DNA from: an uncultured Bacteroidia bacterium
GTDB lineage: Bacteria; Bacteroidota; Bacteroidia; Bacteroidales; UBA932
Direction: 5' to 3'
DNA length: 49,264 nt
Assembly: GCA_902762655.1 (NCBI GenBank)
Contig: CACWOZ010000012.1
Location: 1 to 49,264 of the forward strand
Below the pieces are notes generated by a model. The model was not told the origin of the DNA. It saw nothing but the letters and a program-made list of their open reading frames with translations, and ran no database searches. This document shows, piece by piece, positions 5,493-39,483 of the stretch. Position 1 is the first letter of the stretch. Every line of letters starts with the position of its first letter. The translations under genes were made by a program, and so were the position numbers.

Positions 5493-5540
5493 ATTCAGTT
5501 GGTTATCTGCCTTAAAGTTACGCATTTTTCCGACACTCCG

Positions 5541-5669
5541 TATGCAAAACCGCCCTTTTTGCATACATCCACCCCCAATTCGCCCGACTTGTATGCAAAT
5601 CGCCCCGTTCTGCATACATCTCCTCCCAAAAAAGCGAATCGGTATGCAAAACGCGGAGTTTTGCATACC
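5541..5669. repeat. Three hairpin units with exact 51-bp period (stem word TATGCAAA)
   Basis: Hairpins lie at 5541-5565, 5590-5618 and 5641-5669. Each has arms of the type TATGCAAA / TTTGCATA around a GC-rich loop. The TATGC word starts at 5541, 5592 and 5643, giving two intervals of exactly 51 bp. Spacers are C-rich and alike (CCACCCCCAATTCG / TCCTCCCAAAAAAG). On the minus strand the array is free of stops in the nfnA frame and would encode 17-residue repeats of the form MQNGAICI..G. The central unit's loop (AACGGGGCGATTT on the minus strand) is nearly the same as the loop of the unit inside atpG at 39257-39285, although the stems differ. Confidence 0.88.
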
Positions 5670-5694
5670 GATCTGTCAAAAATCGTACGTTCTA

Positions 5695-11316: not shown

Positions 11317-12687
11317 CTACTGTTTAGTGTTAGACTTCTGCGCAGCAGCCCTTGCCCGTATCGCGGCCATCACCTGACCCTTTGCCTGGCGGATATGGTC
11401 CAGCAGAGGGATATAGGCGGGGCAACTGTAAAGGCAGCAGCCGCACTCGATGCAATCCTGCACGGCATTCTTCTCAAGAGCTTCGAGATCGCCGGCCGCA
11501 TAAAGCCTGCGGAGCAGGAAAGGCTCCAGGCCCATGGGGCAGGCATCTGCGCAACGGCCGCAGCGGATGCAGAGACTCTCCTGTCCGCGCCTGGTCGATG
11601 CCTCGGAAAGATAAAGTATGGAAGATGAGCCCTTGACGGTGGCGGCGTCGAGATTCGCAATGGCGCGCCCCATCATGGGACCGCCGCTCACGAGTTTCGC
11701 TGCCCCCTCAGGCACTCCGCCGGCATATTCGGCGATGTAACTGAGCGGCATGCCGATGCGGAAAAGGTAGTTGTGCTGCCTTTCCACGGGCAGGCAGTTG
11801 CCGGTGATGGTCAGGGTGTTGGTAATGAGCGGCTTATTCTTCTGCACAGCCTCGTAGACCGCGAGAGACGTGGCCACGTTCTGCACCACTGCGCCAACAC
11901 TGATAGGCAGTCCGCCGGAACCCACCTCACGGTGCATCACGGCCTGGATCAACTGCTTCTCACCGCCCTGCGGATACTTCTTCTTGAGAGGAAGCACCTC
12001 GATTCCCTTGTAAGGGAGTGTGGCGAGGGCCTTGCCCATGGCCTCGATGGCCTCGGGCTTGTTCTCCTCGATGCCGATCACGGTGCGGCATCCGCCGAGC
12101 ACCTTCTGCATGATGGCTGCACCGACGATGATCTCCTTCGTGCGCTCGAGCATGATGCGGTAGTCGCTGGTGAGATAGGGCTCGCACTCAGCTCCGTTCA
12201 GGATGAGGCACTCGGCCACACTGCCGGGAGCGGGATTGAGTTTCACATGGGTGGGGAAGGTCGCACCTCCGAGTCCGACCACGCCGCAGGCCTTGATCTT
12301 ATCGAGGATGGCAGCACGGTCTTCCGGGATTTCAGTGACGAGGGTGTCGGAGAGATCGACTCCCTCTACCCACTCGTCGCCCTCAACTGCGATTTCAACA
12401 TGCATGACATTGTTGCCGGCAAGGTCCTTGCGGGGAGCGATGGACTTCACGGTGCCGGAAGCTGGGGCATGCACGAATGCGGATATGAATCCGCCGGGTT
12501 CGGCTATCACCTGGCCTGTCTTCACCTTGTCGCCGACGGCCACGATAGGCTTCGCGGGGGCTCCGAGGTGCTGGGCCATGGAAACATACATGGTCTGGGG
12601 CAGGGGCAGCACCTCGATGGCGCAGCCGCGTGCCAGCTTGGCGTCATCCGGATGCACACCGCCAATTGCAAACGTTATCTTACTCAT
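11317..12687 (-). CDS. rnfC: Rnf complex NADH-binding subunit RnfC
   Basis: 456-residue cytoplasmic subunit that exchanges electrons with NAD+. It has the Nqo1-like FMN/NAD domain (CGVVGLGGATFPTHVKL near 134, LILNGAECEPYLTSD near 163), then two [4Fe-4S] motifs at the C-terminus (CIRCGRCADACP and CIECGCCLYSCP). The start at 12687 is supported by an excellent Shine-Dalgarno (AAGGAGG, 7 nt before ATG), which is notable because such sites are uncommon in this phylum. The gene overlaps the rnfB stop by 8 bp. Confidence 0.97.
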   Translation of the reverse strand: MSKITFAIGGVHPDDAKLARGCAIEVLPLPQTMYVSMAQHLGAPAKPIVAVGDKVKTGQVIAEPGGFISAFVHAPASGTVKSIAPRKDLAGNNVMHVEIAVEGDEWVEGVDLSDTLVTEIPEDRAAILDKIKACGVVGLGGATFPTHVKLNPAPGSVAECLILNGAECEPYLTSDYRIMLERTKEIIVGAAIMQKVLGGCRTVIGIEENKPEAIEAMGKALATLPYKGIEVLPLKKKYPQGGEKQLIQAVMHREVGSGGLPISVGAVVQNVATSLAVYEAVQKNKPLITNTLTITGNCLPVERQHNYLFRIGMPLSYIAEYAGGVPEGAAKLVSGGPMMGRAIANLDAATVKGSSSILYLSEASTRRGQESLCIRCGRCADACPMGLEPFLLRRLYAAGDLEALEKNAVQDCIECGCCLYSCPAYIPLLDHIRQAKGQVMAAIRARAAAQKSNTKQ

Positions 12688-13693
12688 TGCTGACCTCCTT
12701 TTTAACTGATTCCGTCGCGGCGGAAACGGCAGTGCCGTCAACGGAAGTTTTTTGAGCGGGCTCGTGCGTGGCGGTAGCGGAGTTGACGGCACTGCCGTCT
12801 CCGCCCTGCGCCGCAGCCTTGGCAGCAGCATTGCGGGCAGCAACACGCGCCTTGATACCATCGCGATCAAGCGGTTTCGGGAAATTCACCCCATGGATGG
12901 CCCCGGTCGGGCACATCGCCTCGCACTCGCGGCAAAGCTTGCACTTCGCGAAATCTATATAAGCAATATTGTTCTCCAGAGTTATGGCATCGTGAGTACA
13001 GGTCTTCACGCAGATACCGCAACCGATGCAGGCATTGGCGCAAGCCTTCCTGGCGGCAGGGCCCTTGTCCTGATTGCGGCAGGACACGAACTCCCTCATA
13101 CCGCGAGGCCCCTTTGCCCTAAGTTCGATGAGGGCCTTCGGGCAGGCCTTCACGCACTTGCCGCAAGCCACGCACTTAGCCTCATCCACCACCGGCAGAC
13201 CGGTTTCGGCATCCATGCTCAGCGCACCGAACTCGCAGGCAGCCACGCAATCCCCGCAACCAAGGCAGCCGAACGAACAGCCCGTGTCACCGGAATAAAG
13301 CGCTGCCTTCACGCGGCAACTGAGCGCTCCATCATAAACATTCACCTTGGGGCGTACGGCACAACTGCCATTGCAGCGCAACACGGCCACCTGAGGGGCT
13401 TTCTCCTCGACTTTGTAACCGAGAATGTCAGCAACCTTCTTCATCACTTCGTTCCCTCCTACGGGGCAGAAATGCGCACTGAGGTCGCTGGCCTTCACGG
13501 CAGTATCGGCGAAAGCATGGCAGCCGGCATAGCCGCAACCGCCGCAATTCGCTCCCGGCAGAGTCTTCTCGATCTGCTCGATGCGCGGGTCTTCCTCAAC
13601 CTTGAATTTCTCGGCGATGAGGAAGAGGACCACTGCGAGCAGCAGACCCAGCCCGGCCAGGATCACGATAGTCCAGATAACAATTGAATTCAT
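12680..13693 (-). CDS. rnfB: Rnf complex ferredoxin-like subunit RnfB, long form with palindrome in its tail
   Basis: 337 residues. An N-terminal membrane helix (residues 4-27) is followed by a four-Cys [4Fe-4S] domain (GANCGGCGYAGCHAF, near 48). Ferredoxin-like motifs follow: CLGCGDCVAACEFG, CVACGKCVKACPKA, CIGCGICVKTC and CKLCRECEAMCPTGA. This fits the longer anaerobe-type RnfB that accepts electrons from reduced ferredoxin. The last 45 residues are a low-complexity Ala/Thr/Ser tail that contains a 24-bp-arm palindromic element (12719-12805). The gene follows rseC with a 4-bp ATGA overlap. Confidence 0.95.
   Translation of the reverse strand: MNSIVIWTIVILAGLGLLLAVVLFLIAEKFKVEEDPRIEQIEKTLPGANCGGCGYAGCHAFADTAVKASDLSAHFCPVGGNEVMKKVADILGYKVEEKAPQVAVLRCNGSCAVRPKVNVYDGALSCRVKAALYSGDTGCSFGCLGCGDCVAACEFGALSMDAETGLPVVDEAKCVACGKCVKACPKALIELRAKGPRGMREFVSCRNQDKGPAARKACANACIGCGICVKTCTHDAITLENNIAYIDFAKCKLCRECEAMCPTGAIHGVNFPKPLDRDGIKARVAARNAAAKAAAQGGDGSAVNSATATHEPAQKTSVDGTAVSAATESVKKEVSNE
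12719..12805. repeat. Palindromic insertion element in the rnfB tail
   Basis: Arms at 12719-12742 and 12782-12805 are inverted repeats matching at 23 of 24 positions (GGCGGAAACGGCAGTGCC.. and its complement). They are separated by 39 bp. The element is in frame in the C-terminal tail of RnfB and encodes VNSATATHEP and SVDGTAVSAA-type sequence. The core is unlike the 73-bp core in fmt and atpG, but the architecture (long near-perfect arms, coding in frame, poorly conserved protein segment) is the same. Confidence 0.8.
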
Positions 13694-18431: not shown

Positions 18432-19393
18432 CGTCCGTGTCCTTTAAGCAATTCCAGGGTAGATTTGGTCTTGGGGCCCGACTCCTCCCTGCGGCGGGTA
18501 ATCATGGCGATGTATTCCTCCACCGTCATGTCCAGGTTCATGTAACTGTAGGGATTGATGGCGTTGCCTTTGTAAATCACCTCATAGTGCAGGTGCGGGC
18601 CTGTCGCCTTTCCCGTCTTGCCCACGGCGCCGATTTTATCACCGCGCAGGACCTTCATCCCCTTCGCCACGTCGATGCGGCTCAGGTGGGCGTAGCGCGT
18701 CTTGTAACCGAATCCGTGATCTATGATTATCTCATTGCCGTAGCCGGTAAAGCTGTATTCCACTTTCTCTACCACTCCGTCACCCGTGACATACACCGGA
18801 TACCCGACATCGGCGGCCAGATCCTGCCCGGCATGGAAGCGCGTGCCCCCATACACAGGGTCCGTGCGGTAACCGAAAGGGCTGGCCATATGGAAAGAGC
18901 CCTTCTTGGGGAGGATCGGGGGCACGGCGGGGATGTGGGACACCATATCTCCGGCATCCACCGCTATCCCGTACACCTCGTCGAGGGCCATGGTTTGCAC
19001 GTAGGCGCGCTTTGTGAGGGAGTTCAGGCGGGAGATGAGGGGATCCGCCTGCGGATCCAGCTTTGCCGCCTTCACTTCTTCCGGGATCACGTTCATGCCG
19101 AAAATGGAACGGTAGACATTGTCATCGCGCTCCTCGATACCATTCAGGGTTTCCTCCATTATGTCCAGCTGGCGCTCTGCGAGGGCGATCTTCGACTGCC
19201 ATCCGGCATTCTCCTTCTTAAGCCGCGCCGTCTTAGGCAGGTCCATGCCGAGTACGGATGTATATATCCAGAAATAAAGCACGCAGAGCCCTGCGGCAAC
19301 GATTATCGTGAGTGAGGTGCGTATATACCGGGTGTAACGGGGTTCTTCGCGGACCTCGTACTGCAATGTGATCGGATTGAACACATACCTCAT
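18428..19393 (-). CDS. M23-family peptidase (LytM domain), membrane-anchored, first copy
   Basis: 321 residues. A single membrane helix near 25-48 is followed by a coiled coil (55-95) and a C-terminal LytM domain. FHAGQDLAADVG near 187 gives the H-x3-D zinc ligands and GPHLHYEVIYKG near 270 the HxH pair; RYAHLSRI is the intervening strand. The predicted substrate is peptidoglycan cross-bridges in the periplasm. The start overlaps the stop of the LptG-Fmt gene (4 bp), so it is translated as part of the alaS-rnfA chain. Confidence 0.94.
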   Translation of the reverse strand: MRYVFNPITLQYEVREEPRYTRYIRTSLTIIVAAGLCVLYFWIYTSVLGMDLPKTARLKKENAGWQSKIALAERQLDIMEETLNGIEERDDNVYRSIFGMNVIPEEVKAAKLDPQADPLISRLNSLTKRAYVQTMALDEVYGIAVDAGDMVSHIPAVPPILPKKGSFHMASPFGYRTDPVYGGTRFHAGQDLAADVGYPVYVTGDGVVEKVEYSFTGYGNEIIIDHGFGYKTRYAHLSRIDVAKGMKVLRGDKIGAVGKTGKATGPHLHYEVIYKGNAINPYSYMNLDMTVEEYIAMITRRREESGPKTKSTLELLKGHGR

Positions 19394-21921
19394 ACAAACT
19401 TATAAGTTTCTATCTCACGGAAGCCACGCAGGAATGCATCGGCACTCATCCGCTTCTTGCCTGCCAGCTGCAACTCGATAATCTCGAGCCATCTGTCGCC
19501 TGTGGCGACAAATAGCTTCTTGCCATAGGTACGTACCGTCCCGACGGCAAAGCCTGTCTTGGATTCTGCTCTGACGGAGATGGAGGTGTCGATGTCCGAT
19601 TCGGACGCCATATCCGCCCTCGGATGTAGAGGGAGGGACCCACCGGAGGTGGGAGGGGCCGTCAGGCCGGCTTGAGAATCGGACATCGACACCTCCGGCC
19701 CTGCGGAAGCGACCGCAAAGATCTTTACATCAGTGGATTTGCCGTCCCGCACCAGCGTAGTCCAGGCGGAAGGATAAGGATTCAGACCGCGGACAAGATT
19801 GCGGATATCCTCCGCAGGACGGCTCCAGTCGATACGCGTATTCTCCTTCGTAAGTTTCGGCGCAGCCTTCAAAACCTCGGAACCCTGGATGAACGAGCGC
19901 TGCACACGGGTCTCGACATTATGCTGGAAAATACCCTCCGTAGTCTCCACCACCAACTTCGCACCGACCTCCATCAAGCGGTCATGCACATCCCCCGCAG
20001 TATCGTCGGGCCCGATGCGCACCTCGTGGCGCAGAATTATTCCTCCTGTATCTATATCCTTGTCTATCATGAAAGTAGTCACGCCGGTGATACGCTCGCC
20101 GTTGATTACCGCCCAGTTGATAGGAGCGGCCCCGCGGTACTGAGGCAGCAGTGCGGCGTGAAGATTGAAAGTGCCAAGCTTGGGCATGCCCCAGACTTCC
20201 TCAGGAAGCATGCGGAAAGCCACCACCACGAACAAATCCGCCTTCCATGCGGCGAGCTGCTTCAGGAATTCCGGATCCTTGAGTTTAAGCGGCTGCAACA
20301 CCGGAAGCCCATGCTCCACCGCATATTGCTTGACCGCAGATTGATGCACCTCGAGCCCGCGCCCGCTGGGCTTGTCCGCCACTGTAACCACTCCTACCAC
20401 CTTATATCCCGCTTTCACCAGTGCATCGAGCGAAGCCACGGCGAACTCGGGCGTACCCATGAATACTATCCTTGCGGGGCGGAAGAAACGCACCACCCTG
20501 CTCTTGAATTTGCGCCAGTAGTTCATAAGCGAATCGTTGCTGAAAAGAGTTGCGTCCTTTATGGCGCGCGAAGTGAGATAGGCGCCTATCGGCCCCAGGA
20601 CAAGGGCGGAGATGAACGCCCCCAGCGGGGCTCCTACGGCACCATCCCTCGCGAGTTTCGTGCCCGTGATGTCCACCACCCAGTAGAGCACGAAGAATAG
20701 CACCGAGATGATCGCGCTCACACCCAGCGCGCCCTTACGTACGAAGGCCCCGAGCGGAGCACCTATGAAGAAAAGCAGCAGACATGCGAGAGCCTGCGCG
20801 AACTTCTTGAGGAGTTCGATATCGGTACGGCGCAGATAGAAGTAGTATTCATACACTTCGCTGCCGTAGGCCAGCAGGCTCGTCTGCAACCTGTCGGCAT
20901 TGTCCGCAGCCTTTTCATAGGCCTTGCGCTTGCGGGATGCGTTGTCCCAGGTGAGATAATTTTCGTTTTCGAAGTATGACTGGTATTTCTCGCGGCTGCT
21001 GCGCTTGGCGGTATCCAACTGCTCAATCAGACGGAAAGAGCCGTACTGCGATAGTTGGGCATAACGGTTCTCCCGGGCCTCCCGGGCCTTCACCTCGAGG
21101 GAATCCTTCTGCTCTTTCAACTGGCTGAGGCGCATGGCCTTGACCTGGTCGCCGTAGCGGCTGCTGTCGGACTTATGGAAACTGTAGTTCTTGAGAGGTA
21201 TGATGAGTTCCTGCCTATCGAAATCGATGTGCTGGAGTTCGCGCGTGGTGTCCCTCAACTTGCGGGTGTTGTTCTCCTGATAGTTGGTGCCATGATAGAG
21301 GGTGAAGGTGAGATAATCCTTGTTCTTGCTCATCTTCATCATGGCGGAATCGGCAAGCGAAAGGGAGGTGTTGCCCTTGCCTGCGGTGTGGTCGTAGACC
21401 ATCACCCCGTGCATCATGCCGTTGTCATCCTGGGTTTCGGTGCGCAGCACGTAACCATCGATGCCGTCGTAGAAGGTGCCCGCCGGAATCTTGATCTCGT
21501 TCTTCGTACGGCCGATGTCATCGCGCAAGGTATAGATCTCGTTCCAGGCGATAGGCACCAGGTTGTTGCCGACATAGAAGGCTCCGATGCTGATGAACAC
21601 AGATGCTATCATCAGCGGCAGCATCACCCTCGCGAGCGAAACGCCGGAACTCTTGATGGCCATCAACTCGTTATGGTCGCCCATCTGCCCGAGCACCATC
21701 ATCGATGCCAGCAGTGTGGCGAGAGGAAGGGCGAGAGGGAGGATGGTGCATCCCCCCAGAAGCATGAATTCGAATACGACCTTCAGCCCCAGGCCCTTGC
21801 CTACGAGTTCGTCGATATACACCCAGAGGAACTGCATCATCAGGATGAATATGACGATTACCAGGATCGCTATGAACGGTCCTATGAAAGCCTTGAGTAT
21901 GAACTGGTCGAGTTTCTTCAA
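19390..21921 (-). CDS. Fusion of LptG-type permease and methionyl-tRNA formyltransferase
   Basis: One open frame of 843 codons. Residues 1-470 are a YjgP/YjgQ (LptF/LptG) permease of lipopolysaccharide export: N-terminal helices (10-32, 55-80, 100-120), a periplasmic beta-jellyroll with a coiled insert (about 130-365), and C-terminal helices (378-450). From residue 484, [19 protein letters not shown] starts a complete methionyl-tRNA formyltransferase with [16 protein letters not shown] near 585 (the usual Ser after His is Ala), DKDIDTGGI near 620 and [12 protein letters not shown] near 709. No stop separates the parts. GTG codons at residues 476 and 477 could allow internal initiation of Fmt. 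Residues about 743-785 contain an inserted palindromic element. The gene overlaps alaS and M23 by 4 bp each. Confidence 0.88.
19582..19696. mobile_element. In-frame palindromic element in fmt (73-bp core, 21-bp perfect arms)
   Basis: Arms at 19582-19602 and 19676-19696 are perfect 21-bp inverted repeats (GGAGGTGTCGATGTCCGATT + C and its complement). The 73-bp interval 19603-19675, read on the minus strand, matches 38720-38792 in atpG at 63 of 73 positions without gaps. A small internal stem (CCCACC tcc GGTGGG) is preserved in both copies. The element encodes [20 protein letters not shown] inside Fmt, between the RNA-binding-domain strands, with no stop. It has no recombinase or other gene of its own. 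Confidence 0.85.
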
Positions 21922-37795: not shown

Positions 37796-38440
37796 TTAAT
37801 CCAGAATAACCAGGACATCTCCGGGATGATTGAAAACGAGCTTGACCACGTCGTTTTCAGCCATGTTCAAAGTGCCTCTGAACCAATAATCGAAACTCAC
37901 CTCGTCAAGCGGCCAGCGCAGGCCGGTGGTGCTGATGCGCAGGGAAGGGTCCTGCGCGAAAAATGAAACTTTTCTTCCTTCTCCTATGTGGAGTTCGCAA
38001 CTGTCGCAGACCGCAAAGGCCGTGTTGTAGTCGGACACCATATCGACATTGATTCCGGAGGCGTCCAAAGCATACTGCTTCTCCCAGAAAAGGAGATATG
38101 ACAGATTGCCCAGCGCGTGGGCTTCGCTTTTACCTGTGGCGCCGAGAATGTGAATTTCCGTCGCTTCCGGGCAGTTCTCCCTCAACCACAGGAAGGCCTT
38201 GTTGAGATCATTGTAATCCTGTTCCTCCACCTTTACCGCCTTGTCTCCCAGGGATTTGCGCTCCGCATCGGAGATGGAATCCAAGTCCCCCACCACTGCC
38301 CCCGGCTCAACGCCGAGCCTGCGCAGGCGCCGCACATTCAAGGCGCTGTCGCAGCAGACCACCACGTCGGCATTTTTCAGCAGCCAGAGCGGATACTCCC
38401 TGCGGGGAAATTCCCCGTTTGCAAGAATCACTGCCGTCAT
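37796..38440 (-). CDS. thiN: Thiamine pyrophosphokinase
   Basis: 214 residues. Makes thiamine diphosphate from thiamine and ATP. The N-terminal ILANGEFPRREYPLWLLKNA, CCDSALN near 29, PGAVVGDLDSIS near 46 and EEQDYNDLNKAFLWL near 72 are the characteristic catalytic motifs. The C-terminal beta-barrel (residues about 140-214) binds thiamine. Its start overlaps the atpG stop by 4 bp, so it is cotranscribed with the ATP synthase genes. Confidence 0.93.
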   Translation of the reverse strand: MTAVILANGEFPRREYPLWLLKNADVVVCCDSALNVRRLRRLGVEPGAVVGDLDSISDAERKSLGDKAVKVEEQDYNDLNKAFLWLRENCPEATEIHILGATGKSEAHALGNLSYLLFWEKQYALDASGINVDMVSDYNTAFAVCDSCELHIGEGRKVSFFAQDPSLRISTTGLRWPLDEVSFDYWFRGTLNMAENDVVKLVFNHPGDVLVILD

Positions 38441-39483
38441 TGCTGCGCTCCTCCCACGAGATCGAGGATTTCGGATGTGATCTTCTGCTGACGGCCCTTG
38501 TTGTATTCGAGTGTGAGTTCGGAGAGCAGATCTTCGGCATTGTCGGATGCGGCCTGCATCGCAAGCATACGCGCCGCATGCTCCGCAGCGATCGAATCCA
38601 GCAGCACCGTATGAATCCGGAGGCGCATCACCTGAGGCAGCAGCGTCGCGAGTATCTCCTCCCCGGAGGGTTCGAGGATGTATTCGCTGTCAGGGGCAGA
38701 CGGATGGGCTATACCCTCCTCAAGCCGGCCTGACGGCCCCTCCCAGCAAAGCTGGGCCCCTCCCACTTCATCCGTGGGCGGATAGGGCGTCCGGAGGGTA
38801 TAGCCCATCCGCTGCCCTCCACCGAACGGCAGGTAGGTTTCGGTCTGGACTTTCTGCGAAGCCGTGCTGACGAAATGATTGTATACCAGCAGGATGCGGG
38901 TGTAGCGCCCGGAATTGAAAGCGTCGATAAGCTCCTGCGCGAACGCCGACGATTTCTCGAAACTGTTGCGGCCGACGAGATCGGCATGATCTTCCGGCGC
39001 AAACCCCATCTTGCGCATCGCCTCCGCCATCTTCCGCCCCACTGAAATCACCTCCACCCCGGCTCCGGCGGCCTTGCACTCCGCCACCAGCTCCTGCACG
39101 CGGTGCACTACATTGATATTGAACGCCCCGCAAAGCGACGAATTGCTCGCCACCGCCACGATGGCCACCCTTCCAGCCCCAGCCACATCCGCTCCACTTG
39201 TTTCCCGTGCGTAAAAAGCCTGATTTTGCGCACGAGGGCCTCCAAAATCAGCCTCCCGTGCGTAAATTGCCCCGTTTTGCGCACGGCCGTCAGGAATGAC
39301 AGGCGCGTCAGCCATCACTTGCGCAAGCATCTGCGACAGCGCGGCGGTGTACGGCCGTATGCCCTCCGCGGCCTGCTGAGCCTTGCGGAGCTTCGCCGAA
39401 GCCACGAGCTTCATCGCCGAAGTAATCTTCAGCGTACTACGCACCGATGCGATGTGATCCTTTATCTCCCTGAGCGATGCCAT
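38437..39483 (-). CDS. atpG: ATP synthase gamma subunit with two inserted repeats
   Basis: 348 residues, about 50-60 longer than the usual 290. The central-stalk helices are intact: IKDHIASVRSTLKITSAMKL at the N-terminus and AEHAARMLAMQAASDNAEDL near 299. ASNSSLCGAFN near 112 is the conserved core strand. Two extra segments interrupt it. Residues about 64-103 encode two 17-residue repeats (RAQNGAIYAREADF, RAQNQAFYARETSG). Residues about 220-265 encode the 73-bp-core palindrome. Both sit in loops of the Rossmann-like domain that vary between species, so the subunit may still work. The gene lies 5 bp after atpA and overlaps thiN by 4 bp. Confidence 0.95.
   Translation of the reverse strand: MASLREIKDHIASVRSTLKITSAMKLVASAKLRKAQQAAEGIRPYTAALSQMLAQVMADAPVIPDGRAQNGAIYAREADFGGPRAQNQAFYARETSGADVAGAGRVAIVAVASNSSLCGAFNINVVHRVQELVAECKAAGAGVEVISVGRKMAEAMRKMGFAPEDHADLVGRNSFEKSSAFAQELIDAFNSGRYTRILLVYNHFVSTASQKVQTETYLPFGGGQRMGYTLRTPYPPTDEVGGAQLCWEGPSGRLEEGIAHPSAPDSEYILEPSGEEILATLLPQVMRLRIHTVLLDSIAAEHAARMLAMQAASDNAEDLLSELTLEYNKGRQQKITSEILDLVGGAQQ
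38701..38811. mobile_element. In-frame palindromic element in atpG (73-bp core, 19-bp perfect arms)
   Basis: Arms at 38701-38719 and 38793-38811 are perfect inverted repeats (CGGATGGGCTATACCCTCC and its complement). The core 38720-38792 is exactly 73 bp, as in fmt. It matches that copy at 63 of 73 positions, with the first 26 bases identical. The inner stem is CCCAGC aaa GCTGGG here and CCCACC tcc GGTGGG in fmt, so one base pair differs by a compensatory G-C to C-G change. Relative to the gene, the element is inserted in the opposite direction to the copy in fmt, yet is stop-free in frame. Total length is 111 bp (37 codons). Confidence 0.85.
39206..39285. repeat. Two hairpin units with 51-bp period inside atpG (stem word GTGCG)
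   Basis: Hairpins at 39206-39234 and 39257-39285 have arms CGTGCGTAAA and TTTGCGCACG. The GTGCG word begins at 39207 and 39258, 51 bp apart. On the coding strand they read as two 17-residue repeats beginning AQN in the gamma subunit. The loop of the second unit (AACGGGGCAATTT on the coding strand) matches that of the central unit at 5590-5618 at all but one position, while the stems are unrelated. Confidence 0.88.

Follow-up and report, generated by a model that had tools for sequence, protein, structure and literature searches.

A dispersed palindromic element with a conserved folded head and locus-specific paired stems in Bacteroidales

Two palindromic inserts in the window and their host genes

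The window analysed here, positions 1 to 49,264 of contig CACWOZ010000012.1 of an uncultured Bacteroidia bacterium (Bacteroidales, UBA932; assembly GCA_902762655.1), contains two copies of a palindromic element, one lying in fmt and the other in atpG. As summarized in Table 1, each copy consists of a conserved core, which we also call the head, between two outer arms that are inverted repeats of each other; the strand reading ..GAGGGAGGGGCCC.. is termed strand B, and its complement strand A. In agreement with a preliminary description of the window, made without database searches, the fmt core and the reverse complement of the atpG core matched at 63 of 73 positions without gaps, and the outer arms were perfect inverted repeats of 21 and 19 bp, respectively. 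When the 115-nt strand of the fmt copy was folded as single-stranded DNA, the computed energy was -41.8 kcal/mol against a mean of -20.65 for shuffled sequences (z -7.8), and 0 of 200 shuffles equalled it.

Table 1. Coordinates of the two element copies and of their host open reading frames (ORFs) in the window
Feature	Position	Strand	Remarks
Whole element, fmt copy	19582..19696	+	B strand is +, antisense to fmt; 115 nt
5' outer arm, fmt copy	19582..19602	+	21 bp, perfect complement of 19676-19696
Conserved core (head), fmt copy	19603..19675	+	covariance model R1: 77.1 bits over 19608-19675
P1 hairpin, fmt copy	19612..19625	+	ATCC 19612-19615 with GGAT 19622-19625; alignment A1
Pseudoknot, fmt copy	19617..19633	+	loop CCCTC 19617-19621 with GAGGG 19629-19633
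P2 hairpin, fmt copy	19639..19653	+	CCCACC/GGTGGG; varies among copies
P3 hairpin, fmt copy	19657..19668	+	GGCC-GTCA-GGCC; predicted from the computed fold
3' outer arm, fmt copy	19676..19696	+	21 bp
Host ORF, fmt copy	19390..21921	-	843 aa, open across element; presumed fusion of an LptF/LptG-like permease with Fmt
Whole element, atpG copy	38701..38811	-	B strand is -, sense to atpG
Arms, atpG copy	38701-38719 and 38793-38811		perfect inverted repeat, 19 bp
Core, atpG copy	38720-38792	-	73 positions
Host ORF, atpG copy	38437..39483	-	348 aa; reading frame open across element

The product of the first host ORF is taken by us, from sequence motifs rather than a family search, to be an LptF/LptG-like permease joined to Fmt, and the names AtpG, RibF-like, YgiQ-like and TrmB-like are likewise our presumptive assignments from sequence. 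That the element had entered fmt in frame, as first proposed, was borne out by the 843-residue reading frame running through it and by the lack of the insert in the Fmt proteins of L056 (same genus), L180 and L227, i.e. all three of the other loci yielding an Fmt; counted by eye, about 11 residues separate KIF from PG in L056, and about 57 separate KIF from VGTV here. The Fmt of locus L086 in genome G160 carries the insert at a position identical to that of the window copy. Among 12 alignable AtpG homologues from 19 other loci, the element-bearing loop was variable by eye; none contained the peptide of the element, and some had different extra residues there. As a separate observation, the permease and Fmt form a single 843-residue ORF without an intervening stop, a join that recurs in L086 and possibly in L056.

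A dispersed family with a constrained, pseudoknotted head and stems altered on both sides

The two window copies belong to a family that is spread over their genus. A DNA search of the own genome with the 115-nt query recovered three full and two partial cores, each further copy having its own arms, and the 5' arm part of the query had no second match at an expectation value (E) of up to 10. The covariance model R1 and alignment A1, built from 14 copies, gave 9 matches in the own genome (G000), and the counts for G023 and G046 at the same cut-off of E <= 0.01 were 39 and 47, respectively. At E <= 1e-3, 170 of 200 sampled genus genomes (68 of 80 among the good genomes) had at least one copy and 79 had at least 10, these genus-wide copy numbers being lower bounds with at most 24 scored candidates per genome. 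In the order as a whole (247 genomes, E <= 1e-4), the element was present in five genomes including the own one; the other four came from another genus of the same family (one) and from other families (three), one of the latter containing 14 copies. An exact-pattern scan of named genomes matched at least 120 stretches, and among the 80 matches listed 79 were Bacteroidales or Bacteroidia and one was Candidatus Coprenecus, many being of rumen or gut origin. These further copies, together with the filled and empty sites described below, uphold the initial picture of a small non-autonomous palindromic element that enters genes.

Searches for the element elsewhere were negative. No match was obtained by blastn with the fmt core against phage and plasmid collections (E <= 0.01), or in viral contigs with an exact pattern representing one common core sub-type that does not fit the two window copies. 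No Rfam family was found at its gathering score across 17 element loci, and the best Rfam hit of the window copy, searched with an E-value threshold, scored 13.5 bits against a gathering score of 100 for that family. Among 907 proteins encoded within 3 kb of 219 pattern-found cores, the 22 largest clusters, judged by eye without a family library, had the appearance of housekeeping genes and included no transposase-like gene. As a side observation, the copies at L284 and L288 (G407, another family) share this core, lie in AT-richer surroundings and have stems that measure about 25 bp by eye.

On strand B, the outer arm is followed by an inner arm that often ends in ..GAAAACC, by P1 with its loop CCCTC, and by the pseudoknot partner GAGGG, and then come AGGG(G), P2, AGGG, P3 and the complement of the arm. 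Over 110 distinct copies, 98.6% of 1632 cells in the head were paired, compared with 33-60% in slid controls. P1 was paired at 99.3% with all four pairs altered on both sides somewhere in the set, and P2 at 96.9% with three of six pairs so altered, pair 48-115 being A-U in 54 copies, G-U in 46, U-A in 1 and other in 9. The pseudoknot was paired in every one of the 109 readable copies and had two of its five pairs altered on both sides (29 and 19 copies), in an alignment fitted to a model that contained P1 and P2 and not the pseudoknot. The compensatory change originally noticed in one inner stem of the two window copies thus proved real and general, since covarying pairs were found in P1, the pseudoknot and P2.

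Some copies have unusual heads. At L123 (5717-5860), P2 is exchanged for a much longer nested hairpin with the rest of the core unchanged relative to L143, and cores of comparable length, judged by length only, lie at L127 (17873-17991) and L133 (639-757). L156 (9426-9505) is a degraded copy that keeps P2, P3 and the G-rich strand, the loop side of the pseudoknot being replaced by other sequence.

The core was strongly conserved between orthologous copies. Over seven ortholog comparisons, 14 of 466 core positions (3.0%) were changed; an eighth (L114-L197; six positions altered in both arms and three in one, core 6/67) was left out as non-independent. Three pairs differed at 1/65, 2/61 and 1/67 core positions with 17-26% of 4-fold sites altered, and the fmt copies of G000 and G160 at 2/73 with 38% altered; these four pairs sum to 6 differences in 266 sites where, by our own arithmetic, about 68 would be predicted from 4-fold rates of 17-38%. 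In the YgiQ-like and TrmB-like pairs, 34-51% of the 4-fold sites were altered. Conversion between copies does not explain this conservation, because two species match better in their fmt cores (71/73) than the fmt core matches the C15 core (92%) or the atpG core (63/73) within one genome.

Among 113 distinct copies, 92 had an arm score of at least 10, with a mean length of 21 bp and 43 perfect arms; the other 21, scoring below 10, are left out of the arm counts. Read on strand B, the 1973 pairs of these 92 copies included 39 G.T, 11 A.C and 27 other mismatches (p 9e-5), and because double-strand events alone would yield G.T and A.C equally, strand B is the one that folds, as RNA or as single-stranded DNA. 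In 12 of 71 copies, and in no shuffle, the stem continued past a one-base bulge into the flanks (3' G in 7, 5' in 5). The outer ten arm bases of five copies in the own genome agreed pairwise at 32% versus 24% when shuffled, a level reached by 17 of 500 shuffles; over five genomes the corresponding ranges were 32-36% and 24-31%, with 67-73% for the cores, and the shuffles reaching the observed agreement numbered 17, 0, 202, 0 and 1 of 500. The outer arms are nearly private to each copy with a weak residual likeness in four of five genomes, so the early claim that arms are unrelated between loci holds for the most part and fails for this residue and for the innermost bases, which are biased (e.g. 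C 71, A 65 and A 58 of 92) toward ..GAAAACC / GGTTTTC... Two copies of G003 agree fully over a 66-bp core and differ in their arms.

Within orthologs, by comparison, the two arms changed in concert. The same seven comparisons contained 19 positions altered in both arms, 11 of them transversions, and 9 altered in one, where independent arms would be expected, by our own arithmetic, to give both-arm changes at about 3 of 170 positions. The arms of one pair, L112/L122, are out of register by one base and show one altered position, and the orthologous pairs L144/L127, L143/L123 (5841) and L154/L138 were seen outside the counts. In the YgiQ-like trio, a single stem diverges over the three loci and the core keeps 61-64 of 67 bases; mirrored changes are likewise seen in the outer arms of G147/G239, and in L154/L138 the outer arm is wholly different with agreement of the core and inner arm.

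Insertion sites, gene context and candidate mover

Whole elements have been gained or lost at single sites. Two sites were viewed in full in a comparison of G003 with G188, whose genes in that neighbourhood are 9% diverged. At each of them one genome has the complete element including its two arms and the other lacks all of it; one site, directly after a stop codon, has about 20 extra AT-rich bases and TAG repeated at the ends, so that a 3-bp target-site duplication is possible at one of the two. Among 70 copies of G003, G188, G147 and G239, 38 could be aligned on both sides and 32 could not; at the 38 sites, the sister had the element in 29, lacked it in 7 (two with long sister intervals, which are unsure) and had altered element sequence in 2, figures that favour shared sites because neighbourhoods were fetched around copies. 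These empty sites, together with the patchy presence outside the genus, were counted as support for mobility.

The gene context, derived with our own dicodon gene caller, comprised 99 copy rows, of which 44 lay inside an open ORF, 44 between genes and 11 across gene ends; one row (c32:L075) repeats an L143 copy, and two short loci were left out. Element length ranged over 91-199 bp and was mostly 100-130 bp. Where gene direction was readable, strand B was antisense in 52 cases and sense in 28 (one duplicate included). Of three frames, 1.97 were stop-free on strand A and 1.25 on strand B, compared with 0.95 in shuffled sequence, and the greater openness of strand A may partly explain the antisense excess. 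There was no replication-strand bias by GC skew (36 agreeing, 34 disagreeing) and no conserved flank motif, no flank position exceeding 39% for one base in 91 copies.

The same protein site was filled at three loci each for the YgiQ-like (L114, L165, L197) and TrmB-like (L090, L217, L281) genes, a further TrmB-like row, L261, duplicating L090 to judge by its arms and flanks, and the RibF-like genes (L118, L132, L186, L228, L256) carry copies within about 20 alignment columns in either direction. Separately, the copies of sister genomes at the orthologous spots L143/L123 (~9110/9430), L147/L131 (~9014/9436) and L158/L134 (~5170/11145) have opposite orientation and other arms, as would result either from separate insertions into a hot spot or from the core having been inverted between the arms.

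As a candidate mover, genes resembling REP-associated tyrosine transposases (RAYTs; REP, repetitive extragenic palindrome) with a Y1_Tnp match were considered. Such matches occurred in 143 of 200 genus genomes, 129 of them over the cut-off (among the matches listed), in frames mostly of about 290-370 aa; five tested proteins scored 28-47 bits against the NCBIfam REP-associated tyrosine transposase model, below its cut-off of 80 bits. With kinship ignored, 137 genomes had both element and Y1, 33 the element only, 6 Y1 only and 24 neither (odds ratio 16.6, p 2e-10), and the median number of element copies, itself a lower bound, was 10 with Y1 versus 1 without. Among the matches listed, two RAYT classes, A and B, were present at E <= 1e-25 in 118 and 156 genus genomes, and the element was found in 131 of 133 genomes having class A, or else class B with a best E under about 1e-90 (termed strong, by our own cut), compared with 39 of 67 without. 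A reverse transcriptase was rejected as the mover, since RVT_1 showed no association with the element, which was present in 50 of the 57 genus genomes that have RVT_1 and in 120 of the 143 that lack it (p 0.66).

Hairpins of other kinds were also observed. In atpG, around 39220-39290 (-), two in-frame repeats, GTGCGCAAAA..TTTACGCAC, form short hairpins of another kind and encode NGAIYARE/NQAFYARE; the AtpG of a relative (L054) has a different short in-frame insert, DQVG.DVSVMPG-like, twice, with a partial likeness in L060 by eye. The window further contains three adjacent hairpins of the form GTATGCAAA..TGCATAC at 5537-5671, and at 12719-12805, near the end of ORF 12680-13693 (-), a 24-bp inverted repeat (96%) with a 39-nt loop and without the element core. 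An inner AAAAC motif, considered as common to simple hairpins, was dropped because it occurred in only 2 of 85 hairpins.

Interpretation and relation to known systems

Taken together, we favour a non-autonomous, strand-specific palindromic element that is moved by a Y1 enzyme, and give this combined reading a rough probability of 0.55. Its parts differ in standing: it is very probable that the element is mobile and palindromic, with a co-varying stem and a folded head under constraint, and the Y1 enzyme as its mover is tentative, the odds falling slightly on the doubtful side. The data themselves establish the family and its distribution, the pseudoknot, the strand specificity, the concerted change of the arms, the constraint on orthologous cores, the gain or loss of whole elements at filled and empty sites, and the reading frames that stay open through copies; the mover, the source of the arm concert and the reason for the constancy of the core are inferred. 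On this reading the element is a dispersed non-autonomous mobile element of about 100-130 bp, strand B of which folds, as single-stranded DNA or RNA, into a long arm stem capped by a head with a hairpin, a five-base pseudoknot between its loop and downstream sequence, and two further hairpins. The head would be the recognised and constrained part, and the stem would need pairing only, its sequence drifting with both sides changing together. Movement would probably depend on an enzyme supplied in trans, a Y1 (HUH) transposase of the RAYT kind that acts on single strands and has the folded B strand as its substrate. The concert of the arms may come partly from hairpin-templated correction in replication and partly from selection for pairing, and the core may stay intact because folding remains important wherever a copy sits, or because damaged copies disappear.

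Several observations weigh against this reading, most of them concerning the RAYT link, which is weak where strength would be expected. At E <= 1e-20, class A, the main RAYT class, is absent from all four element-bearing genomes outside the genus, which weakens it as the sole mover. PF01797 has no match in eight genus genomes that contain 8-16 copies; four of these have class A by profile, and G014, G158, G194 (97% complete) and G215 have neither class. At E <= 1e-25, 18 genus genomes with the element lack class A and B. Of 19 Y1 neighbourhoods, each spanning about 8 kb, just 2 contained a clear copy and one more a weak copy (E 0.03), and by hand count among the matches listed 3 of 29 RAYTs lie within 1.1 kb of a copy, where about 0.8 would be expected by our own arithmetic. 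Of the six own-genome RAYT loci viewed, the class A genes at L312 (C33), L314 (C1) and L316 (C7) are flanked by other, simple hairpins, forming a pair that matches on both sides and differs per gene, and no such pair was seen at L294, L295 and L305. Beside the stem foot, itself variable in position, there is no conserved tetranucleotide such as GTAG or GTGG, and the association statistics ignore phylogeny. As to the constraint on the core, the orthologs compared are copies detected by the model, so that decayed ones could be missed; however, of 31 sister intervals with element sequence, 29 retain the pseudoknot pattern, as does, by eye, a further variant, and with only one interval (L156) lacking the pattern, such detection bias looks small.

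A possible but less favoured reading is that the element represents a new class of strand-specific structured nucleic acid which is both mobile and functional in place. The head would then be under purifying selection at each insertion, even in important genes, and a stem of free sequence with enforced pairing would give every locus its private paired stem.

It is rather unlikely that the element is primarily a structured RNA, with strand B transcribed from its own or a read-through promoter, each copy having a cellular role and mobility being secondary. The low rate of core change relative to 4-fold sites (3.0% versus 34-51% in the YgiQ-like and TrmB-like pairs and 17-38% in the others), the invariably paired pseudoknot, the G-U-rich covariation, the sites filled at three loci each and the sharing of 29 of 38 two-sided sites, a figure raised by the choice of neighbourhoods, would suit such an RNA. 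Strand B is, however, more often antisense to genes, so that in most cases the mRNA does not contain strand B; none of the Rfam families matched at gathering score in the 17 loci, nor credibly at the window copy; and filled/empty differences between close relatives indicate that single copies are dispensable.

If the stem were the terminal repeat of a miniature inverted-repeat transposable element (MITE) belonging to a double-strand transposon, of the DDE type or another, this would account for the size, copy number, inverted ends and whole-element gain or loss, but such an origin appears improbable. The ends of a MITE are common to all copies, and here the outer arms of different copies have little sequence in common; the short TAG duplication is suggested at only one of two sites, no transposase-like gene stands out near the copies, and the arm mismatches are asymmetric between strands. 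Still harder to maintain is the idea, raised in the preliminary description, that insertion writes the arms by copying the flank in inverted form. The G003 copies with identical cores and different arms, and the stems that extend past a bulge into the flanks, could be taken in its favour; at five of five short empty sites, however, neither the arm nor its complement was matched exactly over more than 5-7 bases, as is also the case for shuffled arms, and the arms were therefore not copied from the flank. The stepwise, mirrored divergence of one inherited stem in the YgiQ-like trio speaks against it as well. Ordinary protein-family sequence or a chance palindrome, with which the open ORFs would agree, is refuted by the genome-wide copies, the covariation, the fold energy, the insert-free Fmt and the AtpG without the peptide, and carries practically no weight.

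The element separates what must be kept, the folded head, from what may change, the stem sequence, in more than 100 natural copies with orthologous series, making two old questions testable: how the arms of bacterial palindromes stay identical, and by what single-strand activity short elements enter genes. Core proteins of this genus, presumably Fmt, AtpG, a RibF-like protein and others, carry translated foreign inserts that annotation could read as family variation.

In open-licence literature, taken as the scope, no such Bacteroidales element was recognisable by title and the start of the abstract. Integron attC sites are strand-specific folded sites defined by structure, with conserved boxes at their outer ends; the element shares the strand-specific fold, but its outer ends vary and its centre is conserved. 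Bacterial MITEs such as Correia, RUP and ERIC/RU-1 are described as short and non-autonomous, with in-frame fusions known (PMC2229807), and the element differs in that its ends are hardly common between copies, where a MITE would have constant terminal inverted repeats (TIRs). Palindromes with perfect arms also occur inside genes of Nematomorpha mitochondria, where conversion is thought to keep them and template switching has been proposed (PMC6649704); these differ in lying in animal mitochondria, and the available part of that source does not mention a conserved core.

Two further systems that come close are the REP/RAYT system and the rickettsial palindromic elements (RPEs). REP hairpins are handled as single strands, have many chromosomal copies and lie sometimes in genes (PMC6006769, PMC3733652); they measure 21-65 nt with a GTAG/GTGG foot tetranucleotide, an atypical Bacteroidetes subclass, 2.6, lacking it (PMC6006769). 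The element likewise has many chromosomal copies, some of them in genes, and within the genus its copy number co-varies, kinship ignored, with RAYT-like Y1 genes, a link that does not carry over to class A outside the genus. It departs from REPs in its length of 100-130 bp, outside the REP range, the lack of a visible GTAG/GTGG foot, and its three-hairpin head. RPEs are listed as palindromes of about 105-146 bp, intergenic and in frame in conserved genes, with a 12-bp TIR (PMC2229807), and their repeats are stated to lose identity over time (PMC6649704). The initial suggestion of RPEs as the closest concept stands as a functional analogy, the element being palindromic, of comparable length and in frame in genes (44 of 99 rows in open ORFs). 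It does not extend to the structure: stems are locus-specific without a shared terminal repeat like the TIR of RPEs, arms stay paired through mirrored change, the head is conserved and pseudoknotted, and the phylum is another one, the element being set apart from RPEs by description rather than by sequence comparison. The element is best read as a new variant of RPE/REP-like elements.
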